The position numbers and the translations under genes were made by a program. Source: Acholoe squamosa (taxonomy: Eukaryota > Annelida > Polychaeta > Phyllodocida > Polynoidae). From it: a stretch of DNA of 64,000 nt. The notes beneath the pieces were generated by a model. The model searched no databases, was not told where the DNA came from, and saw only the letters and a program-made list of their open reading frames with translations. The stretch is taken from NCBI GenBank assembly GCA_949317995.1, contig OX439050.1:48733777-48797776 (forward strand). The letters are read 5' to 3'. The stretch's first letter is position 1. Each line of letters begins with the position of its first letter. Below, piece after piece: positions 1-55,525 of this stretch.

Positions 1-3000
1 TCATGACATTGACTGGGCGCTGAATACTGCTGCATTCCAATAACCTCTATTTCTACATCTTGTGATTCTTCCTGCCCCAAAGTTTTAGTGGATTCATCAG
101 TGGTCGCCTCAGCTGAAGAACTCCTCTGACTGTTATCATAGCCAACCTTCAGTGCTCTTAATTCATCAGCCCATGAGCCAACAGTATGAGCAACATAATC
201 ATCAACTGATTCGTCTATGTAACCCAAAGGTTCATCTGATGAGGTGCTCCTTGTTTCCACACATGATGGAGGAGCATGGGTATTGTTGTGGTCAGTCTCT
301 TTGTATTTTTCTTGCAGCTCTTCACCCTTTGCCATCTCACTTTCCCCCAGGCCAAGTACAGAACATGACTTCTGTTCATCTGAGGATATTTGTATCTGGT
401 CCTGATCAACTTGCCTTTTTGCAAATTTTGATGGAAGCACATCTTCAGGCATTATATCATCGGCAAATCCTGCAGTCGGCAATGTGTGCTGAGCTGTCAT
501 ATAGCCAGGATCTGGTATGTCAGGTGTCGGTAACACATCTAGACCTCTTCCATCACAAGCTCTAGCGGTTGTTGATACTAGTGATGCATCCTGAGCAATT
601 TCCTTACTGCCTTCCACCATTCCTAAACTTGAGAATGCATCCACCAGAGTTTCATGACATGCATCATTCCCAATGGAATCAGTTACATCTTCCTGATAGT
701 TGTGTAAGGTTTCGGGTTCAATATTGGTAGCATCAGCAAGAATGTTCTCTTTGTCATGGTCACTTGCATCATTTAATGCCTTTAGTTCATCTGCCCAGGA
801 GCCAACTGTATGTGCAACATAATCAACTGATTCTTCAAGATGAGATATATGTTGATCAGTCAACTTATCACTTTGTTTAGCTATACCGTGCAATGTCCTT
901 CCCTCTGATTGTGACATATCAGCAGGTCCAAGATCATGTGTAATTGATGGGGGGCATACCCGATCATTTTGTCCTATCGCTTCTTCAGTAATTCGCCTTT
1001 CCTCTTGGACCATCTCAACCCCAGCACCTGATTGATGTTCACTATGAGAAACCTGTACCTTAGCATCAGAGAATTTACTTTCTGTTGTTGATAATTCTTT
1101 GATGGCTATTCCACTAGCATTGTGTGCAGTTTCTGGTAGCAAATCTTTGCCAATTACAACTTCAGCTTCTACATATGGAGCTGTTTCCTGTCCAGGTTCC
1201 CCTTGTCTAGTTGTTGTGATTATATCCCCAGTGAGTTGCATACTAGGAGAGATTCTGGCATCCGCATCCCTAATGAGCTCAGCTACAACTTGAAGGTGAT
1301 TGTCTATGTCTGCCTTTGAAGTCATTTCTTGGTGTCTTCCTTCACAACATTCACTGAGCTCTGAATCTTGCTGTGTCTTGACAACATGAAATGATTCTAC
1401 ATTTTCTGGCTCCCCCTGTTCCATTGTAAGAGTGTATTCGGCAGTGGTCATGTCAGTTGAAGAATCTTCTTGATTGTGGTCCAAGTTATCCTTTAATGCT
1501 CTCATTTCTTCAGCCCAAGAGCCAACAGTATGAACAACATAGTCATCAACTGATTCATTAATGTAACCTGAAGGTTTATCTGGTGATGTGCTCTTTGCTT
1601 CAAAAATTGATATTCTTCTTTCTGCTGATGGTGCATCAGCTTTTCCATGACCTTTCCCTTCATTTTCCTCTTGAAGATCTTCACTATCAAGCTTGTAACT
1701 ACCTCGTACATCAACTTCAGAATCTGAGAGTATGTGTGTCTGGGGATAATCCACTTGCCTTATTGGGGATTGAGCTACTGTCAATGGTTGTATCATATCT
1801 CCTCCAGATACATCACTAGCTTCCGGAATTCCAGGTGCAGATTTTTGGTGTTGATCTGTCACATAACTTTCATCTGGTATGTTAGGTGTTGGTAAGACAT
1901 CTGAACCTCTTGTATAACCAGTGTCTGCAGTTGTATCAGTTTTATCATGAGATTCCACCATTTCTAAACTTTGTAATGTATCCTTCACTGTTTCATGACA
2001 TGTAGCGTTCTCAGTGACGGCTTCTCCATTTAGATCTGTTGATGTTTCCAGATGACTGTCTAGTTCTTCCTGTGACTCCATCATTAATGCCCTTTCAAGT
2101 CTCATAATCTCAAGGTTAAGGTCATCAAGTTCAGTGCTGTCTTCAAGCTCCTCATATATTGTTGCAAGTTGTGAAGGGTCCTCGGTATAATAAACCACTT
2201 CATCTAACGAGTCATCCTCCACCTCATACAGGTCTTCATCTGCTACATCAGCTGTATCTGAGGCATCTTCTCTTAGTTCGTCCTGGGAATTTCTCCTTTC
2301 CTCTAATAACTGAATTTCCTCATCATCAATCTCAACATGTTCAGTGTCTTCATAGTCACTCATTATTTGATACAAATCAGCATCATGCATTTCACTTTGT
2401 AGAGTGTCCTTGCAATCCCTTTTAGGTGTCAAGATGTCTTCCTGGCATTTTACCCCGGTCTCAGTCTCATGAATGTAGTATTTTACCAATTTCTGATCAT
2501 AATGATCACCTTCACTCTCAGAATATGTCAAAGCGGACTCAAGGGCTTCTTCCATGTCTGTAGGCTCAACAGATGTATCATGTGACAGCTGGATTTTCTT
2601 TAAGAGTTCTTGGTGCAATTCCTCTAATGGTCCATGTTCGTTTTCCCCTGGTTCTCCACTTTCTTCCTTTTCTACTGCTTCTTCTTCTTCTACTTCATGT
2701 ATTTCTACTTCAACGGCTTCCTCTTTGTCATCATCATCTTCCTTGTCAGTATCCCCTTCTGAATGTTCACCATCCACAGTCATCAAATGCAAGGATCGTT
2801 CCCTTCTCAATGTTGCAGAAGTTAAACCTAAGAAAGCATCCACTTGTTCTATTGACATAGAGTCATTTGGAACTTCAATTTCATCATCAATTAATTCCAG
2901 GCTGGCATCGGGTAGGAACACACTATCATTCTCACTATCCAGTTCATCATATGAGCTACTGAGACTAACAGGACATACTTGGGAGTCCTGGCCAACCTCT

Positions 3001-5593
3001 AGTTTATCTGTTGTAGCTTCAAAGTTTATATGGATCTGAAAACCTTCATTGAGATTCTCCATTATCAAGGAACTATTGTCATCAAGTTTGTCTTCAATGA
3101 CAATATTGATAGGGCCAGCAAAAGAAGGGTCCAATATTACCCCATACTGTCCTGCTATCGATTGATTAAGAGGTTCACCTCCCAATGACCATTTGACATC
3201 TCTACTTCCAATCCCTTCATCATCATCATTTTCTATTTCAATCAGAGAATTCCTTTCAGAGTTTGTAGGTGCAATGGCTTCTTGATAAGACCTGGATGCA
3301 TTATCTGCTGTAAACATCCATTCAATCTTACTCCCATCTTCTGACTGATCAGCCTCACTAGACAGTTCTGGATTCCTTGCTAGTGGGGTAGGGGCCCTGT
3401 CTTCATCTTCATCTGATCCATCTTGATCTGTAAGTAGATCTTCATTAACCTTTTCCTTTGGGATACAGTCCTCTCTTAAATTGGTATTCAGAGCCAGATC
3501 ATGTTCTGTCAGAACAGGGTCGGGTTGTTTATCTTTGTGTGTTGAATGGTATTGGTAATCCTCCTTAGCTGAAGTCTGTATTTCAAGAGCTGTGACTTGA
3601 CTTCCCATTGTATCTTCATCTTGATAATTATCCAATGAACCAACATCATCTTGGACAGAATGAAGTGTTTTAACATCCGAATGGATCTCTGATTGGTCAA
3701 CATCCTCAGTCGATGTTGGCTGATGCATCGATCTCATTAGAATGTTTGAATGTTCAGACACAGTTCCTTCATTTATGTGGTCAGCTCTGGGACCTGTAAC
3801 ACCCCTTCCAATTGCTTCACTTCCAATATTTGTCTCAGACTTTGAACTCTCACAATGCTCTGTAATAGGAAAATTGCCTCTTTCATTGTCCTCAGGCACA
3901 GTCATCATTAGTTCCATGGTTTCATTTTCATTCCATGTATATACTGCTGAGCTGTTTGCTGCTTCCTTAAATGTCGATGGCTCTATCACCATCTTAACTG
4001 GATCACTGTGGTCACCATTCCCACCTGGCAGTTCCAAGGACAACTGAGGGTCAGTTTCAACTGGTATATACAATGAACCACTTGTCTCAGGAGTTGCAGT
4101 GCACTGTTCGCTTTCAAATGTGGAGTCAGCTGAAGTGGTTATGGCTTCACCCATGTTAGATTCATCTGGCAGTGATGATATGCTGATAGTCTGCCCTTTT
4201 GCAAAAGATGATTCCCCCCAGGCACCTGCCTCTTCCACACCCTGTAGGTCTGGGTCCTTTGAACTGAGGTATTCACCCAATGTTTCCACCATGACATGTG
4301 AGGCTTCTTTCTCTTCTCCTGCATCATCTCCTAATGGACAGTGCTCCTCCATTGGTCGTTGGTCTGTGGCTGGATGATCTAGTTCTGTTTCCCCTGTTTG
4401 TTGATTTGTCACTTGAGTTTCTTCCACATCCAGGACCTTCCTTGATCCCTGGGTGTAATCAGCGATAGGAATAGAGATTGCATGCTTGGATAGTGTAAGA
4501 GTTTCAGATGCTTCCGCCTCCACTTCTGTTTGGATTGCCTCATGATATTCAATTCCTCCTTCACCTACCACCTCTTCTTGGTGGTAATCAGACTCAGATC
4601 TCATAAAGTTTATGGTTTGGAAAGGTTCCTGATTTTTGTCCTTTTCCCCAACTTTCACAACACTGATGTCTTGGCGATTTCCCTTTTCCTCACCAGATGC
4701 ACTTACTCCAATCATTGATTGATCAGCTCTGTGTGTGGAATCTGTGTTCTGTGACATGGTATTAAAAGCATCTTTAGATTCAATGGCTTCCTTAAGCATG
4801 TAGTCATATCTATCACCTTGGCCACTTGCATCATCCTTACTGAGCTCAGGCAGTATCTGCCCATGAGGTAGATTGTCTTCATTATCTATCCTACCCCAAC
4901 CTTCCTCTGCTCTCTCCCCTTCAAGGGCCATGAAATCAATCTCCTCAGAAGTGGCTTGTAGAGTTTGACCTGTAACCATTACAAATTCAGTCTCACTAAT
5001 AGACTTGGTCAAAGCATTATCCATTCCAAATGTTTGATCATGTTCCTGCTGGTTACTACCTGTGACTTCTGGTTGTCTACAGTCTCCCACTACCAGATCA
5101 TTATGTTCTACAACAATGTAATCAGATTCCAAGCTGTCACTACTTACTGACACATTATCTCTGGCTGTTGTTTCACTGCGGGAATCAGGGGATGTTTTGA
5201 GCTCCTCAAAAAACTCCCCTTTAGGTATGATTTCATCTTCTGCAGATGTTTTCTTTATAGTTGGGTCAGGAATCTCCTCCTTCACTTTTCGTTCTTGTTC
5301 TTGTGTGCTTATTTGTGTGGATTGATCCGGATCCGTCCATGAACCATATTCATCAACATTATAGGTCTGAATGTGTTTACGAACCTCAGCTGTTGCTTGG
5401 CTGCTTTCTGTTGACAGTAGAACTCCTTCATGTGAAGAATAACTACCCATCGTCTCATCCAATATTTGTGTGTTCTCAGATGCTATCAGTGGGAACCTTA
5501 TCTCATAACCAGCATCATCATAGTCCACGTTTGATATTTCGGAGAACATAAGTGTTTCTCCTAGGACACTTGGCAGATTCACTTTTAGACTAG

Positions 5594-5635
<42 letters not shown>

Positions 5636-8600
5636 GTGACATCTTGGACTCTTCATGTACTATGTCATCAACACAAGCTGACCTAGGTGTTTCTGTTTCA
5701 AACAAACTCTCATTTTCTATTTCTAAGTGACTGCCATCACTGGACATACTTTCCACACTCAAATGAGTATCATCCTCCATTGGTCTATCATCTATCTTTA
5801 ATTCATCTATTTCTGTGTCTCTAGTAGTTGCAAACTCTGTTGGTAATGATTTTTCTTTCAAACTTGTAGCAGGAGGTACATTCGGCATAGGCCCTTCTAA
5901 CTCTGCTCCATTATCCTCAAATGTCTTTAGTTCTTCTGCTTTCACTTCTTCCCATGATTCTGTTAGATTAACAGTTTCAGCAGTATCAAATTGTCTTTGT
6001 GCATCTTGGACTGGTTGCTGCTCGAATGCTTGATGTATTGACTTTGTGCTTTCTGTTTCAGAAAGTGTTGCTTCATAATGCACTGATTCCCTATATGTTG
6101 AATCATGGTTTTCAAAATCTGCAGTGACCACCTCTGTATTAGCAGGTTGACGGATCAGTTCAAGGAACTTCTCATGAGCCATTATTATTTCATCAGGTTG
6201 TGAATCACTTATAGGCTCTGTCTCAGATGGATGAGAGTGTGATGGATCAATGTCCCTAACCAACCTTTCCTCCTCCTTATCACCACCTACTGCATCTTCA
6301 ATACCACTACTGACCTTTGAAATCATGGCCGCATACCCCTTCATATCACCGCTATGCTTTTCAGATGACTTACTTATTGACATTCTGCTGAAGTGTTCAC
6401 ACTCAATAGGTGTTTCCTGTTCATGACCGATAGAAGTTCGTTTCTCCTGTTCTTTCTCTTTATCATGTACAATGATACCATGACATATATCCTCAGGCAC
6501 ATTGTCTATTGGTGATTCTGTGGCACCCAAAGCCATTTCTGGGTGTGGTTCTTCTTTCCTTTTGTCATACACTGTGTTATAACTGCTAGAGGGTCCATAC
6601 ATTTCAAATGCACTTGATTCACTCATTTCCACTGGGCTATCTCCTTGAGCTTGATGTAATGTTCTGGTTTCCTCTTCTCCTGGGAAATCTAAGGCAAGTG
6701 TTCCAGGTGAGCCATTGTCCCCATCTGGTCTTGCCTGTGATAATGCCACCTCCTCAGCATCTGAAACATCAGCAATATCTTTAGTCACAATACTCTCCTT
6801 GTGATCTGTTTCACCCATGAGCTTTAGGAACATACCAAGTTCAGGAGGAGCTACCTCTGTCTCTGCAGTGCATGAGCCATATTCTTGATGGACAGTCAAG
6901 TCATCTGATTTGTTCTCACCCAGGAAGTCATCTGAAGTTATATCCGATTGGCCTTGTTCTAACTGAAAAACCTCATCCTTTTTGAGCATTCTTTCTGTTG
7001 GCAACATATCTTCCTGAGCCTCATGCTCTACATCATCAAATCCAGTGTTCCCAGAAGACCTGGTGATTACTTGTAAAGCATTCTGAAGTTCATCCGCTAA
7101 TGATTCATCTATCTCTGAATCACTAATAATGACAGTGTCCTCGTTGTCATCTTGGGCATCCTGTATCATGTAACCTTCTGATATTTCCATTTGATCCATT
7201 GGATCCACTCCTGGAAGAGGTATTGTGTCAGATTCAATAGCCTCTTCATCTGTCAATGGAGGTTGGCTAGTAACTTCTGATAGAACAAACACATTGGTCT
7301 TGTTTCTTTCTCGCTTTCTTCTCCTCCTCTCTATGGCACTCTCATCTTGACTTTCTTTGGGCTGAGCTACTTCTGACACATGTTCTGGAAAATTTAGCTC
7401 TGAGTTATCAACCTCTGATTTACTAGTATCTGATGGTTTATTGCCAATTTTGATATGGGGAGTCTCATCACTGACATTTATGTTTCCCCGCTGAACCACC
7501 CAAGCTTCTACAGTGCCATACATGCTGTCCATTGTTGAGATGGCCTTTGAAGAAACAGTGGTTGCTTCACTAGTATTTTCATCATTTTGGTTTACTGCAA
7601 GCATATCTACCTCCTTATGCATGTCAGAAATATTCTCAACTATTTCCTCAGGCAGAGATAAGGTTTGTACTTCTTCAGCTATGTACACATCAGAAATGGG
7701 GTCTTCAGTAAATACTCTCATATCCTGTTTCACATCAGTATCTGTCATCCCTTGAATTATTCCTGGTAGAACTCTTTCAGCGAGTTGTTCAGTTGTATTT
7801 TCTTCAAGAGTAGTCTGTGGGTCCATCTCCAAGTCCGAAGTTTCCCATTCCTTTCTTCCTGAAGTGGAATCACTATCTGGCAGCCTTTCCATCACAGCAT
7901 TGGGTTGAATATCCTTAGTTCTTTCTCCATAAGTCACCTGAGATTCATGACCCATCAGATTAACCTTGCTGTCATCTTGCATACTTGAATCTCTTGGCTC
8001 AAATGCTGTCGTTATGCTAGAAGCATATTTTCCCCTGCATTCTTTATGAAAATCATGAGAACTTTCAGGATTAGTACCTAGTTCACTTTCATGGTCGTCT
8101 GATGTTTTAACAGTTTCAGATATGTTATGTTCCAATATTTCCTGATAAGGAGATCTGATAGCGATACCATCCTCTTCATTCTTAACTTGGGACAAAGTTG
8201 TAGTGGTCAACACTGCATCATCAATGCTGGGATCTTCTTTCTGTGTTGAAGGGGATCGGACAGGAGTGCTATTCGTATTGAGTGTGTCTCTATCATCTTC
8301 GACCGATTGGAAATTGCCTATGGCCAAAGTGACAGACATTTGTGAATCATCACACAGTGTATTATCCGTGGGATCTCCAGATGATTCTGGTTGCCTGTTT
8401 CTATCAGCATATTTCTTTGTCTCATGGTAGAATGGCTCAATCTCTCCCCTTTTGTCAGATGCATCAACTGACTTTGACACAGAAGTCAGTACACCTTCTT
8501 GGATGATATGGGAGGAGAGTGACTCTGCTAGTGATATCATTCCTAGGACTTCAGAGATATTCAGGTCCATATCGGACACTTGAGAAAGTGTACCATCTTG

Positions 8601-11600
8601 ATTCTGCTCTGATGTTTTTGGCTTAATTTGTTGGTCATCATCTTGGGGTATTTGGTCAAGTGTGCTCGTAGAACAAGCCATATCTATAGCAGGATCATCT
8701 CTGGTGGGTCTAGGTTTCTCACTTTGTTCTTGGTTCAGGTTATTCACCTTGAGTATATCATAGGTGTTATGAGGCGAAGCCAGGTCTTCTTGTTCTGGCT
8801 GGGGGACATATTGGTGGAATGCTTCTCCTTTTTCAACTGAAAGGGCACTTCTCTCTGTTTGTGACGTAGTAGTCCTCATTTCTACTTCAAATGGTGTTGA
8901 AATAATGATCTGTGATTCTAGTGATTCTAATTCATTTGGCGATGCATCAGTCTGTGAGGACATAGTTGCTTGCTCTTCTATTTCAACTTCACATGGCTTG
9001 GCTTGATCTTCACTGTGCATATGTGAGGAACCTGTGGCTACTGCTGAGTCAGAGGAAGTTTCAATTAGATGGGTGTTAATTCTTCTCTCTTCCCGTGCCA
9101 TTATATCAGCAACAAGCTTGGCATCCCTCTCTTCATCTATTTCTGTGGACTCTGCAGATTCAGCATGGTGTATCAGGCTCTGTACCATTTCCCACTCTGA
9201 TGAAGTTACCTCATCAGAGTCAGACTGGTCATCACCAACTTTATATGGGGGACGGTTACCTGGCAGATCATCTTGATGTTCAACAGTTTTATCTATAGTT
9301 CCTGGTATCCTCAAATCCACACTTACTGTCTCTACAGGGACACAATCTAATCCACCATGTTCACTATCTCTCTCCGGTAGTTCACTTTGAACTCTGGTTT
9401 GTTCCTTATCCTTCCTGTCCATTTCTGTCTCTGCAAACTGACTTGTTGAAAAGGATGTTGAGCCACTTTTGCTCGAAATCTGCTGGAGATTTTCAAAATC
9501 CAATGACGATGGGACATCCACAGACATCATTCCAAAAATAACATCATCTTGGTTTGGCTTATCTGGGTTTTCTTTGGTTTGAAATTTTGATTCAGTAGTA
9601 ATGAGCTCTGGATCTCTTTCTTTGGATTCATCATTACCATCCAGCTCACTTGTACTGGGTATGTGGGATTGTATGTCATGAATGCACTGAGAAGATTCCA
9701 GTGGGATGTCTTTGTATATGGTATCCAACATTGTATCTGTACTCTCCTGTGTTGTTATTGTCAAGTCTTCTACTGCAGGTTGGCCTGAGTCCATGGAGTC
9801 CTCTCTTGATAGGAAAGCTGCATTATCTATGTCAGTAGGATCTCTCAAAGGTGCTCTGTCTTCATCTTGTTTTATCTCCTCTGATACTGAAACCTCCATC
9901 TTATCCTCTGTTGCTTGATGTGAACCCAATGGTCTTTCATCCATATCACCTGCCTTAGTGTCATACAAATCATGGTCTTCATCTTTCACAGACAATCTTG
10001 GAGAAGTCCTTTCCACATTAACTAAGTCTCCTAAAATATCTTTGTTAAGACTGAGCTCATCCTTATGGAATTTACTTTCATGAGATGTGTTGTAGTCAGT
10101 ATCCACACATACACTCCCGGCTTGCATCCTCTGACTAATTTCTGGATCTCTGCTTTGTTCTTCTATTAATACATCTGCTTGCCCCAAAGGTACATCTGGA
10201 CCTTGTGCAGGCATGTTGAAATCACATAGTTTAGCAGCTTCAACGCCTGTATGAGAGTCATCATGCTTCTCCATTGGATATTCTGTGGAGAGTGAAGTGA
10301 AGCTGGCAATCTTAGCTACATCACCAGATGTCATCAATTCAACATTGGATGAACCTACATTCTTCTCATCCTCTTCCTCTTCTCCAGTGCTTTGGGGATT
10401 GCTTATCTGGTGTTCAGCTGACTCTGTCACCATGTAGGATTCCTCACTCCTGTACATGTGAGGTGTATCTGATTCATCACAGGGTCTGGGTAAAGAGTCA
10501 TGTGTGTGAGTGCCATCATCCACAATTGCTCTCTCCATAACGTCTCCATGTCCTGTACTGTATTCCTTGCCAGTAGTCTCACTGATATCACCTCCAATGA
10601 CTGGCATATTAGTATCAATTGATGTATCTAGATTGTCAGTCTCATATGAGATCTCCCCTCCTTCTCCTTCTGACCGATCTACTGAACTGGAAAGCATCAG
10701 AGGAAGCTCAAAAGCTATAGAAGGCATGTCATAATCTAGTTCAACCTGGTCTGTGTGTTCTGTGGGCAGTGAGGTTACACTTGAGGATTCCGGAGCTTCC
10801 ACCACTTCAACACATGATTGGTATTGTTGATCTATATCCTTAACATTGTCACTTGGAGTTTTAGGTGATTCTTGCAGATGTTCAGCTGTAGGAATGCCAG
10901 AATCATGTGGATAAATGTTATCTAAGCTTGGTGACTCAGATCCTTCATTGTAAACCAGGTCATATTGACATTGTTCTTTAACAATTGCCTCTTCAATATT
11001 GCTTCCCACATGCTCATATGACTCAATCCCTGATCCCATTTCTGTCTTTTCAGCTCCTGAAACCAGAGCTATACTGTCATTATCAGCTTTTTCCACTGAT
11101 TGTGGTTGGCAACCATCAATATCCTGTGCCTCATGTATACAAACCTCTTGAACATTCCTCTCAAGATTTTGAAAAGCTTCTGTAACAATTTTGTCCTCCC
11201 CATCAACCTCAACTTGAGAAGCAGTGGTAGTGACCATCATATTAATTTCTTTAGACAGTTCAACATCTTTAATTGAATCTTCATGTCTCTGCTCATTGAG
11301 TCTGGCATCTCTGTTGTCATCAGGAGTATGTTGCTGTGTTCTAGGCACATCAGAATTAAGTGGGCCTTCTTGACCTAGTGCTGGCATCTTTAACTCACCT
11401 GGGATAGCAGCTTTGACCACCATGTGTGAGTCATCATGGACATCCTCTTGACATACTGTGGAGAGTGAAGATATGCTGCTATCCTTAGCTACATCAGCAG
11501 ATGTCACCAATTCTACATTCATTGAAACTTCATTCTTCTCATCATCTTCACCAGCATTTTGGAGATCATCACTCAGGTTTTCAGCTGATGCTGCTTTCAA

Positions 11601-14600
11601 GTCTGATTCCTCACAACTGTACAGGGGATGGTGATCAGGTTTATCTGCTTCATCGGTGGGCCTTAGAAAATACATATCCATGTGAGTGTCATCTCTCTCT
11701 ACTGCTCCTTCTATAGCATATGCATGTCCTGTTCTGCATTCCTTGCCAATAGTCATATCCCTTTCTATGGGTTTCCTACTACTGTCCACATATAGAAGCT
11801 CCCCTTCTCCTATTGCTGGTTCACCCTCCTTGAATTCTTCCATTTGACTGGCAACCATTTCATCCTTACACATCACAAGAAGCTTACGGGATTCTATGGG
11901 CACAGAAGTTAGACTTGATGGTTCTGAAGCTCCTATCACACTGTCACATGAGGGGTATTGTTCCATATCCTTAACATCATCCCTTGACATGTGAGGAGAT
12001 TCTTCCAGATATCTCGTAGTATGAATGCCACTTCCATGTGGATAATTATCCTCCAAGCTCGAACAGGTCTCACTTGAATATGCTTCTACCTGAACCTTTT
12101 GCTCTTCAGGTTTTTCCTTGATAATAACTTCTTCTATATTGCTCCCAACATGCTCATGTGACTCAATCACTGAGTCCTTGATTTCAATTCCAACACCTGA
12201 AACCAAAGCCTGTTTACCATCACCATCTTGAGTTTTGTATGAGTCTTTAATATTGTCACTATCGGATTCTTCTTCTAGATGTGACTGACACTTTTCAATG
12301 CCCTGTGGTTCAGATGAATACTCACGTTCAGAGACCTCCTTCACGCCATTTTTCACAGATGTCTCCAAAGCCTCTGTGATAGTTCTATCTTCCTTATCAT
12401 GATCAATGTGACTAGTAGCAATCTCTATGTTTGATTCCTTGGACAACCCAATACCTTCAGTTGAATCTTTATGCAATGTCTTATTAATTTTGGAATCACT
12501 ACTGTCATTACCATGATATGTTTGAGGCACATCAGAATCAAATATTGATAGACTGCTATCAATCTCTTCAGCATATGTTGTAGATGGCAAAGTATCCTCC
12601 TCACTAACCCTTTGTTGAACCTCTCTTTCATCATCACCCTGACATCTGCTAGATTCCTTCACATGCTCAGCACTGCATACATCAATAATATAGTGATCTT
12701 CATCCTTGGCTTTGACACTATCACCAATATTGATCTTCTCCACTGGTCTCTCAGTGTTTGGCATGTCTACTGTGGACTGATCTTGGTGTGTATCATCAGG
12801 TACTTGGAGAGGGATGTGAGGATCAACTACCAGCTCTGGGACATGACTTGTTGCTGTCTGTTTGTCCTCTATTACCTCTGTATGTTGAAGGTATTGGTGA
12901 GATACATATTCAGATGCATATTCATCTCCACCAATATGACAAGTGTGAGGTATGTTTCCTGAACTTGGACTTGTTGGATCTGATGCACTGCCCGTCAAAA
13001 TCAAGTTACCTTCTTCTTTGTCCATAGCAAGCACATCCTCCAATGCTGATGCTGTGCCTCTGTCGCTCTGGGTAGTGTACTGCTCAACACCAGTGATGGT
13101 ATTAGTCCTCTCAACATAACCAGTGGTTTCCTCAGTCTCTGCGAGATCCTCATGCATTGTATGCATTGTGTCCACTTCATACATATCAGTGGCCTTGTTG
13201 TCATCAGTGACCTCATGATCGTCATTAGGACCTCCCTCATGTAAAGCAGCAAACTCATGTTGGGCATTTTCTACACTTGGCTTTTCTGAATCTTGTATGG
13301 ACAACAGTGCTAAACTGGCTGATTCAGCCAATTCAGCAGATAGATTTATCTCTGGTTGTGACCTATGTTGGTCATCATATTCCATGTCCTCTGTATAGAG
13401 GATATTTGGAGAAACAGCTTGAGGGCCCCATTCATGTAATGCTTTGACTTGCGCTTCATTAACAGAGGTCACTGGTTCAGGGTGTTCAGGTAATTCAATC
13501 GCAAGATATGGGATGACTCCCTGTTGCTGCTGATCGTAATGATAGCTTCTAGACCCTTCACCTAGTGTAGTTAGATTTTCACCAACTTTGTGGGTCTCTT
13601 CTTCCTCATTGATGTAGGTTTCTTGTTTGCAATCGCCATAATCACTTTGATTTTCATGTGGATGTGATGGGCACCCTTCTTCCTCACTTTCTTGTATTCT
13701 GCCTTCAGTGATCGAAGCAGTACTATCTGTATCTTTGCAGGGAATATCATCTTCAGGTGACATTAATGAACCTCTCAGTTCCTCTTCTGGGATAAATCCT
13801 GCATCATCAGTAATCAGTGTTAATACATTATCTTCTGGACGTATAATGTCTGACTGGGTGGATGGCACTGACTCAGTCTCAGAATGATGGGCCTTAATGT
13901 TCAGACTGGATTCCATGTCCATTCTACCAATAGACTCCTTCCGTTCATTTTCAAAACCTGGGGATGATGTCAATTCTAGCTGATTTGATTCACCAGGACC
14001 CATGTGTAATTCACTTTCTTCAGTTGTCTTTTCAGTACCATCATCTACTCTCCTTGCTGCAATTGGTATCCCCTCTTGAGATTGACCTGCTTCAGCTGGA
14101 GTTCTGTTCATGTTCTGTTCTCCAGATGACAATTCTAATTCCTGAATATCAGATGATGGTACCAATGTAGTAGTTAAAGGGTATTGTGTCTTGTCCCTAT
14201 GGTCCTCAAAAGTCTCTTCTTCCTGGTAATATGGTAATTCAGGTGTTGAATCAACTGGCTCCAGATCTGTAACCATTTCACAGGATTTTGAGTCCTCTGA
14301 TGGGTCTTTGCTGTCCAGTACTGCAAAGGGTCTGTCAATATGAACTATGGCATCATCTCCAGAATCTTCTGGAAAATACGGCGGGGCAATTCCCTCTTCT
14401 CCTATATCAGAGATCATCTCTGTTGTGTCAGCTGGTTCAGGATCCTTCTTTACTTGATCATCTGGCTGTGAGCATAACACCTTTACTGACGGAATGTCTT
14501 GCTTAATGACCTCTATTTTACTTGATGGATCTAAAGTTTTCAATGTCACCTCCTGACCCTTTATCTCTGGTGCATCAAACAGCTCAATTCTGTCATTGAT

Positions 14601-17600
14601 ATCAATTGGAGTCTTCTCTTGTGAGGGGCAATCCTGTCCTTCATATGTTAAAATTTCCTTATCTGCTCCCCTTATGATATCTTTGTGCTCTATTTGCAAT
14701 TCTTCAATATTGTCCTGTAAATCAGGGTACAAGCTTTCAATCACCTTGATATTATGATCACTTTCCCCTTGTTGGTGGGCAGTGGCCTTCCCTATTTCAT
14801 TGCTAGTATGTTGTACCTCAGTTTCTGAAGCAGGTATATTGGAAGGGATTGTTCTTGTGTCATCATTCAGTTCAGTAGAGGATGCGTCTTCATTATCTGG
14901 ACACACTTCTGTTTTCTCTTCTGGAACATCAAAGGCAGCTCTCTGTTCGTGCTCACCATCTACATCTTCTCTATGGAAGGTGTCAGTGTCAGCTGCACCA
15001 GCATGTTCCTCTCCTGGGTGCATATCCATTTGCTCAGTTTGATGATCCCCAATAGGCTCTTTAATATTCAGCTGACTTGGGGATATTTCTTTATCATTTT
15101 CTGTCTTGGGTAAGCTGAGTTCATTCACCTCTTGTGTCTCATTCTCTGGCAGAGTGGATTTTGCCGTTTCTGAGTCTGTTTCAGAGGTCACATCTCTGAA
15201 TTCTTCAGGATTGTCTGACATGGACAAAGTAACATCTGCATCAGGAATAAAGAGCTGTTTCCCAGGTTCTTTATCATCATGGATGCTTGAGTCCTGTACT
15301 ATTGGTAGCCAATGAGCAACATCAGAACTTTCAGCTTTTTCACTTTTCCTGCAAATATCTAGTCCTGTTTGAAGAGCTAAATCAGATTCTGATGATGGAA
15401 TATTACGATTACTTTTTCCTTCCTCAGCCACTGTTTCTTTTTCCAAAGTTGTTTGCTCAGCAGTATAAGCTACTTCTTGATCATTGATGTCAGATATGAC
15501 TGCATTCAGTATTTCCACCGCTGATGATGATTCCAAAGACTGCTTTGGGGACTCTATTTTTTCAGGAATACTACAAGTATCTGCCTTCTCAATTTGTCCA
15601 TCAGGCCCTATGTTCAGAGCAACTATAGGTTCTTCTTTTACAGGGTCCTGAGGTTGATAGCCATGTGATCCTTCTTCTGCAGCATATTCCTCTTTTAAAG
15701 TTACACTGTGCTTCTCAATATCACCTGTTTGCTCAGGCATGCTTTGATCTGAAACCCTTCCTGGTTCACCTGGTTCTGCTGACACACTGGTCATAGGTCT
15801 CATCATGGTTTCCTCAACATGTACGGATGCATATTCAGATGAACCTTGGTGTAGTTGCTGGTCCTTGATGTTCAGGAAGTCAGTAAATTCTTGTGCAGCT
15901 GAGATATCTGGTGAAGCACTGCTATAGGCATCTTTATCCAATTGATGTGATATTTGTAAGTCTGCCAAATCATCCTCCTCATTGAGTGAAGTTGTGTCCT
16001 CCATCTTTATATATTCTTTTTGGATGTATGACTGTTCTTCTGTGGAGAGTAATCCCGGGTCATTACTTCCAGGTTCATTTAGAATATGGCCTTCAAGTTG
16101 CAGTTCTATTTCAGGGACATTTTCTGATGCTGTGGTAAAAGTATCGTTGACTTCCTGCACATTCACATCATCTTTGCTGATAAACTCTTCATCCTTACTG
16201 CCAGATGGCGACCGAAGGCCTTTCACCTCATCCAATCCCAATATCTGCTCATTGATCCTAATTTCCATTTCAGTCAGTGTGCTCTCTGAAGCAGAGTCCA
16301 TGTCTTGTTGTTCCTCACTTATATGTCGTGTGTCATCGGCCAGGTTAAGGTTAATTGATGCTACTTCTCTTGTATACCCTTCTTCTGAGAATATATCAAT
16401 TGAATCTTCAGCAATGTCTCTGTTGGGCTGACCAATGGTACTTATTTCCTCTTCAGTGTCATCTCCAATTGATATACCAATGACATCATCTAGGGCCTGT
16501 TCATACTCTGCAGTTGTAGTTTCCGATTCATCCTTCCCTGCAGAGATAGGTAAATTTGACTTGGACCTATCTGATCCTTGTAATGGATTGTGAGTCTCAA
16601 CACCTGATGTATACTCCCTATCAACTTGGTGATCACCTGCTAGCTCATTATCAGGCACTGCTGCAGTGTCCAGAGCTTTATCCTTGTTTCGGTCCTTGGT
16701 GTCTGCATCTAGACCAATCTGTCCCTCATTGTCAGACTTCCTTATGACCACATCACTTTGCTGCAGTTGAGGAATGGTTGAAGAAGGAGCCAGGTCATAA
16801 GGAAGTTTGGTTTCCTCACACACAATGTCAGTCACTTCTTCCTGCAGACAGTTTTCACCCGAGGAGTGTGGTTCATCACCAGTGACTGGTTGTTTTGCTG
16901 GTGTTTCTGGATGTAAGTCAACAACCAGCTTTTCTTCAAGAGTAACACTTTTGTAATCTGGTTCCTCATAATCAGAAATATTTTTTACTGCTGAGTCAAA
17001 AATGTATGAGTTATCATATATTTCCACATCTTCCACATCTGGTGTTCTTCTATCCTTTTGACATGTTTCTAAACTAATGTCTAATGGGGCTGTCATTGTT
17101 TGAGGGTGTGTTAGGTCATCTGTCAATGTGAAATCTGAATTCCCTCCAGTTTCTTTATCAGCATATGTAATTTCAGTAGATAAGGCGGAAATATCAGCAT
17201 TAGCATTTGTCTCACCAAGGTCTTCTGCAATTTCATTGGCACCCATAGATGTCACTTGAGGAATGGTGTCATCCTTATGGTCTCCATGCTCCAACTCTTC
17301 CTCTATTTGATTCCAAACCTCATGTACAGAGGTGTTGGTTTGTTCCTTGGTCCCATGGATGTGAACTAGATCAGCCGCAAGAGGGGCAGATTCCTGCATA
17401 GCTTCCCCATGCAAGGTTAACTCTGTTGTGTAGCTTTGCAATCTATCAGTCTTCTCTTCTCTATTATCTACAGATAATTTGAACACTTCTTCTGGGTCGC
17501 CTGTCATTTCAGCCTTCTCCATTGCAGGATGATTTGAGATGGTTTTCATGCCTGTGACTTCACTATGCATTTTGCCTACTGTGTCTTCTGGCCTCTGTAC

Positions 17601-20600
17601 TGCCTCTTCCACCCACTCAGACCATTCAGATTCTTTCATACAGTGCTCTCCGAGCCTATCCCCCTGATCTTCTCCTGTTCCCTCTGCTGTACTGTCCAGA
17701 GTATCCGCCACCAAATTCTGTGTGGCTACATCCATATCAATCTGTTCCACGCTGTCCTCTTTGTCTGTGTTCTCATTACTATGCATTATGTAATGACTTA
17801 CAGACTCTAGAGAGAATTTGGCCTCATCACCTGCGATGTCAGACCCTCCTTCCTGAAGATGCCTATTCTGACTGGACTGTAACTTATTGCCAGTGACTGG
17901 TAGCTCTGGGTGTAGGTCATCACCTAGATTTTCCTCAAGAGCACCACTTTTGTAATCATGATCAGGAATGTCCTTTGTGTCTGGTTCTAGCATATACACA
18001 TCAGCTTCATAAATTTCCTCTTCTTTCACATATGGTTTTGTTGTATCCTTGTCAAAATCTGGACCTATACTGGTAATGGCTGAACGAGCTGTGATTGGTG
18101 GGAAATGTGTGGGTTCAGCATTGTCTTCACTGGTTTGAACATCAGCACCTGGCATCAAGAAATCGAAGTTTCCTTCAGATTCCTTATCAATGTGTGAGGT
18201 TGTGATTGGTGAGGGAGAAATTTCAAGGTTAGTGTTTTCCCCATCAAAAACCTGTACAGGTTCACCCATGGATGTCACTTGAGGGATGGGTTCATCTTGG
18301 ATGGCCTTCAGCTCTTCTTCATGCCTAAACCCTGTCTCTGCCTGACTCCATGGCTCATGCACAGAGAAATTGGTTTGTATTTCCTCAACTCTTTTATCTA
18401 CTGCTGATTCAGACTCTTCTTCACATTCTTCTGTCATTTCAGCTTGCTCTCTTGATGGATGATTCGGGATGTCTGTGACAGTAAGCAGTTCCACATTGGC
18501 AGACATGGGGGAGTTTTCAACATTTCCATCCCTGTCATTTGAGTGATGTTTGTCTTGTGCCCCTACACCTGCAACCATGGGTGCCGATTGGAAAATGTGT
18601 TCATCTTCCCAAAGTTCAGAAGATTTCCCTTGCTCCAATTGTATTTCTGTCTGATGGTGTATTGCTTGTATTGACACATCAATGACATCACTGGTTTCAT
18701 TGCTAGAAGGTATCTCCTCAAGGGAAGATTGTGTAATAGCTTCTTGATATTGTACAGGATTTACGTCATGTGTATATTGTGGATCATACATAGTAGAAAC
18801 CTGACCTTGTTCTCCACAGATTTTGGTCACTGTGTCTTCTGGTCTCTGTACTACCTCCTCAGACTTTTCAGCCTCCTCAATCCCTTTTATTGAGTATTCT
18901 TCAATCCTTTCCCCTTGATCCTCTGTGTGAACTTCTTTGGACACATGATGCACGTTGGCAAGGATATCAGGGTCTTCTTGCATCAATAACAGCATCCTTC
19001 TTACCTCATCATCATCCATTATTGCTATGGTTTCAGCCTCATCCATTTCTGAAAGATTTGAGTCGTGCTTTGAGTCTGTGTCAGTGAGGAGTTTCCCAGA
19101 TGTTGGGGAGACTGTATTATTTTCATCCCTGTCATTATCATGGTGTATATCTTGTGTCCCAACACCTGCAACTGCTGATGCTGATGGAAAGATGGATTCT
19201 TCTCTTATAACCTCAGAAACATTCCCTTGTCCTGATGCTCCTTCAGTCTGATGGGTGATGACCTCTCTCTCCACAGTCCTGACTTTACTCTCTTCAGAGG
19301 GTATTGCATCTAAGATAAAGCCAGGTCGTGTAATACCATCTCCAAGTTGCATTGAACCTGTGTCACATGGATACTGTGACTCACGTATAGTAGGGATCAG
19401 AGATTCTAGATTGCTATTGTCCACCTTACCTTGTGCTCCTTGTGATGGCTCCTCTGCCTGTTCAGCCTCATCAATATCCTTTAGAGAGTACTCTTCTAGC
19501 CATTCCCCTTGGTCTTCCCTTGTGGATTCTTGTGGAACTGAATGAAGTTTGGATAGGGGATCAGGGTCTGCTTGCATCAATAGCAACATCCTCCTGACCT
19601 CATTATCATCCATAGGTTCTGGGGTTTTATTAATACCAGGTGAGAACACAGGTTCTTCTTCGGGTTCCACATTAAGATTGCCTGAACTGTCCTCAGGGCT
19701 TTCTCCTTCATTTCTTTCATCTACACGACTCAGGGAATGTAGCAGTTTTCTTGGTATCTCTTGTTCAGGCACTTGGTCAGTTTCTGTGATGTGCTTTTTA
19801 ACTTCACCTACTGAATCATCAGAATCTTCCTCACTGATCTCCTCTACAATGCTAACAGAGGGGACAAATCTCTTCATCTTCTCTATCTGGCCTGGGGAGA
19901 AGGGTTCATCTTCAGGAGCAACTGGGGCGTCAGTTTCTTTTGAAGATCCACTCCATATTTCATGACTTTCAACAGACTTTGAGGAGCTGAGCTCTATTGG
20001 CTCAGTACAAAGGCGCTCTTGTACCTTCTGACGATTGGCAATGTATTCTTGAACTGCAGATGGAGTAGATGTGTCTTGAGTGGATGATCTCTGGGTTTTA
20101 GTTTTTGTTATCTTTCCCTCTTCTGCCTCCATACTGGTCTTGAAAGGTAAATCCTTGTTGGAATATTGATCATAGCAGGGCAATGAAGGCAATGTCTCAT
20201 CAGCCTGTATTGCTGAGGGAACTACATGATACTGAGATTGAAGTTTGTCGTCCTGGTATTGGTGAGTGATCTGACTTGATTCTGTAGTACACTGCTCAAA
20301 GTACTGACTAGGGGTTTCTTGACACGGCATAGTTCTAACAGCCAATTCTCTACTAGGGTATTGCCTATGGTAATATCGTTCAGTACCACATATGGTGTCT
20401 AGTGGAGTGCTGATGTCTTGGGCATCGTAACTGTCATGTAATTGGAAACCACTGCTCATGTCAACAATTGGATTGCCATGTTCATCACAGGCAACTGACA
20501 TCTCCATAATAGACTCTGGTGATGATATCCTGTCTGGTGTTTGAGACAAACTCATGTCTCTATAAACCTCTGTGTAGTCTTGGTTTGATTTGTCTCCTTT

Positions 20601-37745: not shown

Positions 37746-37908
37746 CCCGACTCAATATTTCACATATACAACAAAGATTAACCCTTACGTGCCCAGAATG
37801 TTTGATGTGATAACGAGATGGCCCATACTTTCTAAGCCATGTTGATAAAACCAGTTTTCCCAAAATAATTCTGGGCATGGAATGGTTAAGGCAAAATATT
37901 GAGTCGGG
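37746..37908. mobile_element. Palindromic hairpin MITE
   Basis: Outer inverted repeats CCCGACTCAATATTT and AAATATTGAGTCGGG are perfect. Inside them lies a second pair, TTAACCCTTACGTGCCCAGA and TTCTGGGCATGGAATGGTTAA, so most of the 163 bp can fold into one hairpin. No coding capacity. Confidence 0.7.
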
Positions 37909-38206
37909 GCTACAAGGAAAAGATCAGAGACAGAAAGTCCAGGAAAGTTTCACACGATAACATCAATACAGCGATCTAAACAGGGAGTGCTACAACAAAT
38001 GCATGCAATTTGTCCTTAGTGAAAGGACTCAAAGACCACTAACTAACAAACAACAGAGGATGTTACAACAAGGACTTGGCAACACGCCACTGATTAACCA
38101 ATGGTAGGGCACAGAGCAAAAGGTGCTTGACAACAGGATCCTTGAGACTACTGACGGTACATAATTGGATATACTGACGATGACACTCAACAGAGAACCT
38201 CTGTAC

Positions 38207-38419
38207 CTCTGAGTCTTCTCCATCTTCCTTCTTAACCTTTTTGGCCTTCTTCTTGGTCTTCTTCTTATCCCCTTCTTCCTCAGTCTCTTCTGATTCGGAA
38301 TCATCTGAGTCCTTCTTTTTCTTCTTCTTTTCCTTTTTCTCCTCTTCGTTCTCACTCTCAGTCTTTCCGGATTCAGACTCATCACTGGTCTTCTTCTTTT
38401 TCTGCTTCTTCTTGCTTTT
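38207..38419 (-). CDS. Exon 8: longest of the Lys/Glu/Ser cassettes
   Basis: Seventy-one codons (residues 212-282), phase 0, acceptor AATCAG and donor GTACAG. It alternates Lys blocks (KSKKKQKKKK at the start) with acidic serine blocks (SDESESGKTESENEEE, DSDDSESEETEEEG), and looks like two fused cassettes. The acidic Ser blocks fit casein kinase 2 consensus sites (S-x-x-E/D). Confidence 0.75.
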
Positions 38420-39683
38420 CTGATTTTTAAATAATTGTTGATCAATGAAGTTTGGTAAAAAAGATATTTTAGCTATCCTTTTTTCTGATTTGGTGAACTG
38501 ACATGGGGTCAGTTCATACGTGGAAATATCTCTAATTTGTACCGTCCGGTACCTAAATCTAAATCAGTCATAAAACATGGAAAATATGGAGCTTTGAAAT
38601 CTTTGTTATTACCCATATGAAGGGCCCTATTATCCTCTACTTTGGTGAAAAAATTGTGTGTCTATCTGCATTTGTCTCCTTGTGAGAACAGCTTATGTGA
38701 AATAATTCTGATAAAAGTACCGGACGTTACGTAACGTCTGGTACTTTATCATCATGTAAAGGGCAGTCTTCTGTGGATGTATAACTCAAATTTTGTTCCA
38801 TATTGTACTTGAAGTCAATTCATTCGTCAGTTAACAGGCATTGACTGGTTTCCAAATGGTTAGGGGAAATCAAATAATCTTTACACACAGCAATCTTGGT
38901 ATGGGTAGTACTGCATTGATTCATGGGATGGTAGGACGGAGGGAATAGCAGACATATGCCATGTCTTATTCAAAGTAGGTTAGATTCCTCAATGAGAAAA
39001 ATTGAAGGATATCACGTATGCTCTAGTGTTGGAAACACATTAACTGTAAGGCCCGTAATTAGAGTTCGGTACATCTATAAATTGATTTTTTTTTTCATCT
39101 CAAAAAAAGTATGCTTTTCCTTAATATGAAAAGGAGAAAGATGTTAAAATATGGATGGAGTGTATCACAAAGGGTACTCCCGACATACAAGATCAGTACA
39201 AGAAACAAATAAGGTTTTCCTCATCATCAGGTTCCATGCTATGCTAATCTGAAGTTATCCTGATGTCGGTGATTCCAGGTACCGCAGTAAATGCTACATT
39301 GCTCCCCGACTCGCAATACCAAGAATAATTGGTGGTGATTTTAATTCTTCAGCTAAAGTTCTATCATTTCCGATGAGGTGAAAGGCAACTTAGCTAGCCT
39401 AAACTTGTCAGAAACAATTACTCAATTACTCATTATTCTCTTGGATGCATTTGTATTTATTGTATTTATTATCAAAACCACTTCTTAATCAGTAAAATTG
39501 GAAATGGCGGCTGGGCATGGTGTAGAACCTGATTGTAGGAGGATGTGTATAAGGAAATAGACCAGAATGTAGGAAGAGGACTGACAAACCAATCTAGGGC
39601 CCACTCAGACACTGGGATACAATCATAGAGGAAACCCACAACAAAGGCCTCAGACACATTACATGAAACCAAGACGTAAGAAC
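38420..39683 (-). other. Intron 7
   Basis: About 1.26 kb. It contains a near-perfect palindrome of 28 bases at 38718-38745 (arm GTACCGGACGTTAC). No exon or RNA gene was seen. Confidence 0.6.
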
Positions 39684-39818
39684 CTTTATCTTTTTCTCCT
39701 TAGCCTCCTTCTCTACCTCTCCTTCTTCCTTTTCCTTCTCATCCTTCTCCTCCTCTGAGGATTTTTCCTCTTCTTCTGATGAAGACTCAGCCTCAGATCC
39801 AGATCCGTCTTTTTTAGC
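39684..39818 (-). CDS. Exon 7: Ser/Glu/Lys cassette
   Basis: Forty-five codons (residues 167-211), phase 0. It starts AKKDGSGSEAESSSEEEEKS and ends EKEAKEKKIK. The donor (AAG|GTTCTT) is weak and the acceptor (ATGAAG) lacks a strong pyrimidine tract, so the exact edges are uncertain. The frame and composition match the neighbouring exons. Confidence 0.6.
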
Positions 39819-39910
39819 CTTCATCATAAATATTTGGACATCTTTGAATGAATTATAGTCTACATCATTCAGAATTAATGAACAAGAAAGCTAAAGCCCA
39901 TGAGAGTGTA

Positions 39911-40158
39911 TACACTGAAAAACTGAGAGGAACGAAACTAGTCAGGGCAGACAACTTTAAGTCCTCAGGTTGACGATACCTAAAACTACAGCTTTAGGTC
40001 GTCAAGGTGACGACTTTAGGTCGTCATCCTGACCACCTTAGTCGTCAGTATGACGACTTTCTATTGTCAGTTTGACAAGTATAGGTGGTCTTTTGACCTT
40101 GACTACCCTAAACTCGTCTGTATTGACGAGTTTTAGGCGGCGGCATGTTTTCTGTGTA
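39911..40158. mobile_element. TA-flanked MITE with internal GTCGTCA tandem palindromes
   Basis: The ends are CACTGAAAAAC and GTTTTCTGTG, imperfect inverted repeats, each next to a TA dinucleotide as in Tc1/mariner-type insertions. The interior (about 39990-40130) is a degenerate tandem array of palindromic units like AGTCGTCA-TGACGACTTT with a period near 30 bp. It is non-coding and lies in the intron upstream of exon 7. Confidence 0.7.
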
Positions 40159-40700
40159 GTATTATAGACAATAACAGTTGCAAAGACTTAATAATGGCAG
40201 CCAAATAGTAAACATGTCTGATCAGCTGCTAAAAACCTACATAATGTTATGAATTCCTAACCAACAATTCCTGAAAAGGTAAGTCATTTCTTGAATAGTT
40301 AGCAGTGAATATCATATGGTCCTCAGTACTGGGCATAGGTCCAATTCGTACAAACCAAGTGTAATAGTCCATCTCTTCCCCTCCTAGCTACTTTGTTCTG
40401 GTAGATCAATACTGAAAATCTAATTATTGTTTCAAGGATATTAATTAAGTGAAGGGATTCTCCCCGTCTTTCTCAGTGAAATATGATCTAAAGTCAAACC
40501 TGAAAGAGAAACGACTGTTTTAAACTTGACTACTTGAATATTTTTGTGCTAACACTAGTCAAAAATATATTGAAAAATCATTGACTTCAGTATATTTGAG
40601 GTCAACTTCACTTAGAAGTTGGTTGAGGAAACCTGATACAGAAGCTATTCAATATTTAAGAAAATCATACCAGTTGTCTGGAGCAAGGGGTTGTTCTCAC

Positions 40701-40790
40701 CTTTTTCTTTTTCTTTGCTTTCTTTTCTTTCTTTTTCTCGTCGTCCTTCTCTTCTTCTGTGTCAGCTTCACTTCCGGACACACTGTTCTC
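40701..40790 (-). CDS. Exon 6: acidic-to-basic cassette
   Basis: Thirty codons (residues 137-166), phase 0, acceptor TTACAG and donor GTGAGA. It begins ENSVSGSEADTEEEKDDEKK and ends in a Lys-rich run, the same acidic-then-basic polarity as most later cassettes. Confidence 0.75.
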
Positions 40791-42047
40791 CTGTAAACGT
40801 TAAGGCCAGAATGACAAAATTATGAGTTAAACACAGGAGACATTTTATCTTCTTAAGCCAATTGCTGGAGTGCATCATAAGACATGGAGTGTGCATTGGT
40901 TATTTCAACATTTCCAACATTCCACCAAATGGAAGGAATTTGGGCTTATTTCTTCGAATTATCCTCTAATGCTACATCTATATAAACCGTATGGTTAACA
41001 AATGTCTTTTCAAACAGGTTGCTATAGCCAATATTGTTTGGAACAGGTAGAATTCATTATTCCCCTCTCAAACCCTATTGTTAACTATGAAGAACATTTA
41101 AAATAATGCTGTACGGCCTTCCTACAGGTCATTATTTTACCTTCGCTCCAATATGAGACAGGACGGTACAGTTTATATTAGTTTACACAATAAGAACTAA
41201 CAATAATATTATTATCTCTGTTTTTGTGGATTATGATGGATTCAACTGTATCATTCAATTTGGTAGGAAAGTGAACCCTTATGAAAACTGCAATCTTACC
41301 TCACGTATATATAAGGCGTGGCAATGCCATGCTATGTGCAACAGATTTGCCCTATGGGATGTCCCTAACCTCAGGAGGTGCCTTATGGATTGAATTTACA
41401 TAACAAAGCGATATGGAAATGGCTTCTGTTTCAACTTGGGGTGCACCTTATATTGTTGCATGTGCCTTATATACATGAGGTAATATGGTAGAACAAAACT
41501 AATGATAAACTTAAGTGGAAAATGAATCCATGAGCATGCATAGAAATTCCAAGCATACTGGTAATACCAGAAAGCATGTATAATAGACTAGGTAGACATC
41601 TAGCTCGATGGAAACCGCACATTATCACAATGTAGTACTAAAAGTGTATAACCTTATATCCAACCAAGTGAGCCAAAGATTTACCATAGCAGTAAGGCAT
41701 ACTATGAAAATCACCAACTATCCAAATTGAGGCATTTTGCTCAGATTATCTCTTCACTATAAACAATTTTGTGGATTGATCAAAGTTACCCTTATGAGAA
41801 GTACATTGAATGGAATGAATATTACTACAATTTAGCTGAGTAGCATCTCGATCCTCTTAAACACTGAGCAATACACCCCAGAGGAGTAACACTAAAGTAC
41901 AGAGTGTGATGGCCCCTTAAACAAAATAAACATTGTTTTGATCTTCTAACCAACAAAGCACAGAATTAGCCTGATCTGATATGTGCAACATTGTAAACAA
42001 AGCAGGCTGAAATAATCAAGTAAAAAAATCGTGTCCATACTGCTTAC
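40791..42047 (-). other. Intron 5
   Basis: About 1.26 kb, AT-rich; nothing recognised. Confidence 0.6.
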
Positions 42048-42068
42048 CTTCTTAGTTTTCTTCTTTTT
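42048..42068 (-). CDS. Exon 5: poly-Lys microexon
   Basis: Seven codons, KKKKTKK (residues 130-136), between a possible acceptor (TCTTCGTAAG) and a strong donor (GTAAGC), phase 0. The donor is convincing. The acceptor has a short pyrimidine tract, so the exon may start further upstream or may not exist. Confidence 0.45.
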
Positions 42069-42400
42069 CTTACGAAGAGATACACAAAATACCATATCAT
42101 AACCCATAACCCACATCATAACCGTAAGAGGCAGAGATATCAACCCAAGTGTAAGTCTACTTTATATCTATGTAGGTATGTTTATATGTTCATACACTGT
42201 TTAATCACGGATTAACTTGTGAATCATTAAAAGTGCCTGTCTGTTAATAAATAACAGAAAGGGCATGATCTTTCATTGTTTTTTCCCCTTGTTAGTCTGG
42301 TTTTATCATGACCAGTAGGATGGGATAGATGGACATTGGGATAACAGAAGGGTAGCTTCTGATGTTAAAGTTGTGGGGATTTAACATCAAAGGTCTTTAC

Positions 42401-42442
42401 CTTTTTGTCCTTTTTCTGCGCTGCTTTGAGAGCCTTCGCTTC
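42401..42442 (-). CDS. Exon 4: Lys/Ala cassette
   Basis: Fourteen codons, EAKALKAAQKKDKK (residues 116-129), phase 0, acceptor TTCTAG and donor GTAAAG. Basic and helix-prone, it is the first of the charged cassettes after the folded domain. No independent function is recognisable. Confidence 0.65.
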
Positions 42443-45384: not shown

Positions 45385-45498
45385 CTTGACCTCTAGTTCA
45401 TGTTTCCTTTGGAACTCTACCTCCTCTTCTGGTACCTGTATCTTTAACTTCTCAAACAGTGTGTCACACTCCACTGCCTCGAAGAACATGGCGTAGTC
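45385..45498 (-). CDS. Exon 3: C-terminal helix of the SH3BGR-like domain
   Basis: Thirty-eight codons (residues 78-115), phase 0, acceptor TCGTAG and donor GTGAGT. It begins DYAMFFEAVECDTLFEKLKI, matching the family's GDYD.FFE..E.N....FLGL; the preceding Gly comes from exon 2. The fold ends around residue 97. The remaining residues (VPEEEVEFQRKHELEVK) are charged and lead into the acidic tail. Confidence 0.85.
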
Positions 45499-46792: not shown

Positions 46793-46978
46793 CCCGAGGT
46801 ACTCCTCATCATTAAAGAGCTGTGGGGGTCTGGGTGCTCTAAAGCCGCTGGGTATTTTAGCCTTGGTTCTGAACAGTTGGTGGTCCTCCCGGCGGTTAGG
46901 GTCTGAGATATCCACAGGTACGTGCTCTATAGCCTTAGACTCCAGGGTCCACAAGATGTGATCCTGCATCTTCTTAGT
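46793..46978 (-). CDS. Exon 2: core of the SH3BGR thioredoxin-like domain
   Basis: Sixty-two codons (residues 16-77), phase 0 at both ends, acceptor TTGCAG and donor GTGAGT. It begins TKKMQDHILWTLESKAIEHV, matching the family pattern KK.Q..(V/I)...LE...I.(F/V) of helix 1 and strand 2, followed by the VDI segment. It ends APRPPQLFNDEEYLG, matching the conserved PLPPQIFN....G segment, which holds the cis-proline region and the proline-rich SH3-binding stretch. This is the most diagnostic exon of the gene. A solo LTR starts 57 bp past its donor, in the intron. Confidence 0.88.
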
Positions 46979-47076: not shown

Positions 47077-47080
<4 letters not shown>

Positions 47081-55480: not shown

Positions 55481-55525
55481 CTCCATGTTGCCCGGGTTGG
55501 ACGATATAAACACCTTGACGACCAT
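55481..55525 (-). CDS. Exon 1: start codon and first beta strand of the SH3BGR-like domain
   Basis: Fifteen codons, MVVKVFISSNPGNME, then a GTGAGT donor in phase 0. The start MV(V/I)(K/R)V(F/Y)I(A/S)S is the hallmark opening of SH3BGR/SH3BGRL proteins. The ATG has a strong context (A at -3, G at +4), and an in-frame TAG lies 36 bases upstream (55561-55559), so this is the first usable start in frame. As in the family, the CxxC redox motif of true glutaredoxins is absent. An 8.5 kb intron follows. Confidence 0.85.

Follow-up and report, generated by a model that had tools for sequence, protein, structure and literature searches.

Does an SH3BGR-type domain, whose family comprises proteins of 10-20 kDa (PMC12827327), stand at the head of one gene for a protein of about a megadalton? 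The question is raised by a stretch of 64,000 nucleotides from the polynoid annelid Acholoe squamosa (assembly GCA_949317995.1, contig OX439050.1, C16:48733777-48797776), hereafter the window, for which a first-pass annotation made from the letters alone had predicted a protein of more than 8,400 residues, encoded on one strand and in one phase. We added flanking DNA of 20 kb past the left end of the window, where positions are given as negative numbers, and of 10 kb past the other end, and searched the genome as 1.48 Gb in 63 contigs. The resulting gene model lies on the minus strand and comprises 23 exons, all with lengths that are multiples of three and joined in phase 0, and the joined frame is free of stop codons. 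It encodes 9,752 amino acids (aa; 1.08 MDa), so the earlier figure was correct but low, and both the gene and its giant exon run out of the window, with the gene ending at -4383 in a further exon that the earlier model lacked. The phase and the splice sites favour a single gene, and so does the absence of a polyA word or a good start codon immediately ahead of the giant exon; we consider a single gene likely, with at least some of its transcripts spanning exon 1 to the last exon.

The domain at the head was established by its profile match. Exons 1-3 join in frame into 115 residues that match the Pfam family SH3BGR (PF04908) with an E value of 7.2e-23 and a score of 81.1 bits (family cut-off 21), covering profile positions 1-98 of 99; this is the Pfam check that had been proposed for residues 1-115, and it bears out the family named there. 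The start codon lies in the context AGCAAGATGG, with A at -3 and G at +4, which is a strong context under the Kozak rule. The donor of exon 1 ranks in the top 0.1% of GTs, and across exons 1-3 the two acceptors fall within the best 3.0% and 0.4% of AGs, the donors within the best 0.1-0.6% of GTs. The observed/expected ratio of CpG in the two bins holding exon 1 is 0.41 and 0.74 (187 bins; mean 0.32, standard deviation 0.19). The head shares with SH3BGR and SH3BGRL proteins the MVxKV start, the motifs PRPPQLFN (PPQxF, extended to PPQxFN) and GDYAMFF (GDYxxF), the absence of CXXC from its 115 residues and, as in SH3BGR, a Glu-rich stretch that follows. Proteins of this family have a thioredoxin fold lacking the CXXC active site; among solved structures the head matched seven sequences at E 0.001, all SH3BGRL-type with 8iah_Z as the best, a likeness read from sequence only. 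Membership of the head in the SH3BGR family is thus confirmed at the level of the profile and its motifs. The modelled intron 1 also holds two satellite-like arrays, at 51768-52287 and 53726-54144, with units of 162 and 133 bases.

The giant exon, which had been noted before, is real and extends 3.8 kb beyond the window. Measured between its acceptor (23135) and the stronger of two donors, it has 26,907 bases or 8,969 codons, within a minus-strand frame (the longest on that strand) that opens at 23153 and meets its stop at -3792, 8,981 codons from stop to stop. Open frames reached at most 182 codons in 50 second-order Markov sequences of 27 kb, which excludes a chance origin of this frame. The base composition is strongly biased by codon position, and the other five frames contain 341 to 1,161 stops. 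Besides, the exon contains several sets of divergent internal repeats (windowed BLAST), and of ten repeat pairs taken for comparison one (373-536 vs 463-626) was dropped as its segments overlapped; in all nine valid pairs, which are not all independent, non-synonymous divergence (dN) was below synonymous divergence (dS), an effect most marked for the ESVDDYV...WADELRAL repeat (dN 0.17-0.25, dS 0.42-0.93). By these sequence features the giant exon is protein-coding.

Between the head and the giant exon lies an array of small acidic exons. The first-pass annotation had counted 21 such cassettes; acidic cassettes are present, but only 18 with phase-0 AG/GT borders were recovered, 17 of them by score and one (29515-29417) added by eye, and the borders of two (39818-39717 and 34156-34007) were likewise set by eye. 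When the donor score was required to exceed 1, the scan returned 11 of the 18 places, one with different borders, and the exact number of cassettes is uncertain. They are rich in E, K and S (26% E, 29% K). The giant exon had been taken for an expansion of this Glu-rich tail. The acidic expansion itself stands, but we dropped that description for the giant exon, because it is rich in D, E, S and T and poor in K and its repeats are its own, so that it does not look like a stretched copy of the tail.

We infer that the cassettes are spliced into the giant exon. The latter begins at a splice acceptor (attcatacag/GTC) in phase 0 like the cassettes, only six open codons precede this acceptor before an in-frame stop, and its donor (ATG/GTGAGG) ranks in the top 0.7% of GTs. 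Several observations nevertheless weigh against a single gene. The rank of the giant-exon acceptor is modest (top 4.8% of AGs), and the splice sites of the cassettes are uneven, with an AAG acceptor in four of 18, one of which also has a GTT donor, and low scores for several other donors. As phase-0 AG/GT borders were the criterion of the cassette search, the phase argument draws its weight mostly from the remaining exons (1-3, giant and last). The bins adjoining the last cassettes have a CpG ratio of 0.42, slightly above the mean. Short transcripts may end within the cassette array; between 45385 and 23135 (22 kb) there are 12 AATAAA words.

The same region could be read as two adjacent genes: one short, coding for an SH3BGR protein with an acidic tail, the other giant, with a non-coding or short first exon and its main exon from 23135. 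All 18 cassettes, if the donor is left unspliced, reach a stop after 3-55 codons, and in nine of them AATAAA or ATTAAA follows between this stop and the next exon; the composition shifts sharply at the border of cassettes and giant exon, an in-frame ATG is found at codon 36 of the latter, and a paralog described below terminates after its Glu-rich tail and lacks the giant extension. However, the ATG at codon 36 is the only one in the first 443 codons and has a weak context, and the next follows only at codon 444. The 960 bases that separate the last cassette from the giant exon contain neither AATAAA nor ATTAAA, and the CpG ratio at the start of the giant exon is low (0.25 and 0.16) against that at exon 1. 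Together with the phase-0 acceptor, these points make two separate genes unlikely.

It is more improbable still that both forms occur, with a separate promoter driving most transcripts of the giant exon and the SH3BGR head being spliced to it only rarely or in certain tissues. Such mixed use would be possible because all exons are frame-compatible, and the 960-base intron contains four TATA-like words, counted without a chance control, which would also tell against a purely joint transcript; against it stands the low CpG at the giant-exon start, where no other promoter evidence was sought. That the frame is non-coding, decayed or mis-assembled, as the lack of a Pfam family at E 0.001 and of a database relative might suggest, can practically be set aside in view of its 8,969 open codons against the Markov maximum, its position-specific base bias and its frame-kept repeats with dN below dS.

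A single gene of this structure need not always make the giant product. As all modelled exons are multiples of three and in phase 0, the product may, without loss of frame, be as long as the full 9,752 aa or as short as about 783 aa, and shorter still where cassettes are left out; with the giant exon skipped the modelled frame remains open and encodes 783 aa.

Table 1. Features of the giant SH3BGR-type gene in window coordinates (negative numbers lie past the left end of the window)
Feature	Position	Strand	Description
Exon 1	55481..55525	-	15 codons; start codon and MVVKVFISSNPGNME; donor GAG/GTGAGT
Exon 2	46793..46978	-	62 codons; SH3BGR domain core (PRPPQLFNDEEYLG); acceptor ttgcag, donor GTGAGT; PF04908 match in genome search
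Exon 3	45385..45498	-	38 codons; end of SH3BGR domain (DYAMFFEAVE...VEFQRKHELEVK); acceptor tcgtag, donor GTGAGT
Cassette array, 18 exons recovered	24096..42442	-	phase 0; acidic/lysine-rich; 529 codons in total, all lengths multiples of 3
Giant exon, part in window	1..23135	-	open frame; continues to -3771 (L006:6229)
Tandem 132-base (44-aa) repeats in giant exon	20529..21056	-	from tandem repeat finder; frame kept; protein repeats EVYRDMSLSQTPERL
ESVDDYVxHTVGSWADELRALK repeat copies in giant exon	1..1600	-	3 in window, 3 beyond
Last exon	-3964 to -4383	-	139 codons and stop; after a 192-base intron

Elsewhere in the window, a minisatellite with a unit of 73 bases occupies 62362-63940 (about 21 copies, 93% matches). 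ARAGORN called a tRNA-Gly (CCC) at 58144-58222, which is probably spurious because it lies inside a 23/46-base tandem array (58117-58373).

The product of the giant exon has a mass of 994 kDa and an isoelectric point of 4.27, with D+E making up 22.2% and K+R 7.6% of its residues, and a simple charge-hydropathy rule predicts disorder in 87 of its 89 windows of 100 residues. A Pfam scan of 8,968 of the 8,969 codons returned no family at E 0.001, the best being DUF1442 with E 0.048. The 55-residue form of the ESVDDYV-type repeat was submitted to fold prediction in its three in-window copies and was modelled as one helix (residues 11-54; mean predicted local distance difference test 68.6, predicted template modelling score 0.36), so a helix is predicted here with moderate confidence. 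When 18 classes of short binding motif were counted against 300 block shuffles, only the core of this repeat itself was enriched (5 vs 0.0, z 50.2). Giant ankyrins carry GABARAP-binding motifs (LC3-interacting region, LIR), and we considered the same for the giant exon; the proposal found no support, as the LIR count was not enriched over the shuffles. In the last exon a 35-residue stretch shows a coiled-coil-like spacing: 80% of its a/d positions are hydrophobic in the register that fits best, chosen over all registers and positions, with alanine and tyrosine taken as hydrophobic and without a shuffled control. Pfam gave no match to this exon with an E value of 1 or less, and a genome search with it returned only itself.

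To place the gene among its relatives, we searched the genome for PF04908 and found five places, the giant-gene locus included, all above the family cut-off. One of them, a paralog on C8 (C8:47724064-47719774), has three domain exons with the same breaks and in phase 0, and like the head of the giant gene it continues after the domain with EEEIEY/EEEVEF and an acidic tail. Unlike in the giant gene, its Glu-rich tail lies within the third exon and ends in a stop codon, giving a protein of about 301 aa. Among the minus-strand frames listed for the next 39 kb downstream of this paralog, the longest has 224 codons, and only five short frames rich in E, D and K passed the filter. Since a copy with these domain exons codes for a protein of ordinary length, the expansion appears specific to the copy in the window. 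The other three places were examined in 3-kb stretches. At C3:3439624-3442809 (L001), the 3' part of another SH3BGR exon 2 and its donor (HPLPPQVFNEEEYCG...) have been multiplied head to tail downstream as a short-period tandem array. Genome searches with two pieces of the giant exon recovered that exon and, elsewhere, only one place each, with E values of 4.94 and 4.49.

Giant relatives were also sought in a protein database, where proteins of about 3,575-11,375 aa queried with exon 2 for the SH3BGR core gave one candidate and none that scored. A control search with the 115-aa domain recovered eight proteins among 13 candidates, of which the five with a named organism were all from insects and the named hits reached up to 291 aa; the database thus holds few animals, and its negative results on relatives say little. 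No giant SH3BGR protein was found in the open-licence literature searched, among the titles and abstract starts of the matches listed. Since the database is poor in animals and the literature was open-licence only, relatives may already stand annotated as uncharacterised giant proteins.

Within its family the gene departs in size, as the 9,752-aa model with cassettes, giant exon and last exon exceeds the usual range and even the 783-aa form without the giant exon falls outside it. Giant ankyrins are built with ankyrin repeats and ZU5, UPA and death domains, and titin consists of folded immunoglobulin (Ig) and fibronectin type III domains. Pfam matched no ankyrin-type domain in the SH3BGR domain, the giant exon or the last exon (the 18 cassettes were unscanned), and no Ig or fibronectin type III domain at E 0.001 across the giant exon. 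The giant ankyrins (ANK2/ANK3; PMC5422562) resemble the gene in being cytoskeletal genes with an alternatively spliced giant exon, a comparison of working and not of membership; they differ in the head domain and in the length of that exon, which is 7.8 kb in ankyrin-G (PMC5422562) against 26.9 kb here. Titin (connectin) shares the megadalton product, and a spring-like role is conceivable for the giant SH3BGR protein, but its largest exon is 17,106 bp (PMC12198301) against the 26,907 bases found here.

What such a protein might do is suggested by its relatives. Human SH3BGRL proteins have been described as cappers of actin pointed ends ('TPEC' cappers), acting together with tropomodulin in an isoform-specific manner, with SH3BGRL-2 at the pointed end in the spectrin-actin complex of erythrocytes, and binding to SH3 domains is held doubtful as the PXXP motif is buried (PMC12827327). 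By analogy, the best-supported reading would be an actin pointed-end cap with an optional, splice-controlled, giant disordered acidic tail. The SH3BGR-type head would bind actin and cap the pointed end, the tail would be enlarged by the run of phase-0 acidic cassettes and the symmetric 26.9-kb giant exon, and the last exon with its coiled-coil-like spacing would close the protein. The long form would then be a strongly acidic, disordered tether or spacer of about 1 MDa, anchored at one end on actin pointed ends, while the last exon would hold or dimerise its other end, and it may be placed in the spectrin-actin lattices of nerve cells or at the ends of muscle thin filaments. That it represents a new kind of giant cytoskeletal protein, splice-switched and setting spacing or charge repulsion in such lattices or at filament ends, is put forward tentatively, as an idea somewhat likelier to be wrong than right.

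A number of points count against this role. The repeats of the giant exon are under weak constraint, with dN/dS of 0.56-0.65 for the long ones and 0.61-0.89 for those of 44 aa, and the remaining 17 motif classes (CK2, LIR, SxIP, LC8 and PxxP among them) were unenriched, with z from -1.6 to 1.6. Residues 7000-7711 of the in-window part drew 1,775 candidates from the animal-poor protein database, none with E at or below 10. Alpha-actinin marks the Z-discs, where barbed ends lie. Vertebrate SH3BGR co-localises with alpha-actinin in the sarcomere (PMC8541172), so a pointed-end place in muscle is a poor fit, and the Glu-rich SH3BGR itself stands outside the capping analysis of PMC12827327; both weaken the proposal of a giant cytoskeletal protein. 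For nerve cells, that paper places SH3BGRL proteins in the neuronal periodic skeleton by citing PMC9184744, whose main text nowhere mentions SH3BGRL.

Pointed-end capping by the SH3BGRL family is itself a recent result (PMC12827327). If the reading of one gene with a giant, splice-controlled acidic tail is true, a member about thirty times the length of its paralog would be a natural experiment on the job of the acidic tail, and the SH3BGR family would join the few, such as the giant ankyrins, whose cytoskeletal adaptors have grown through a giant exon.

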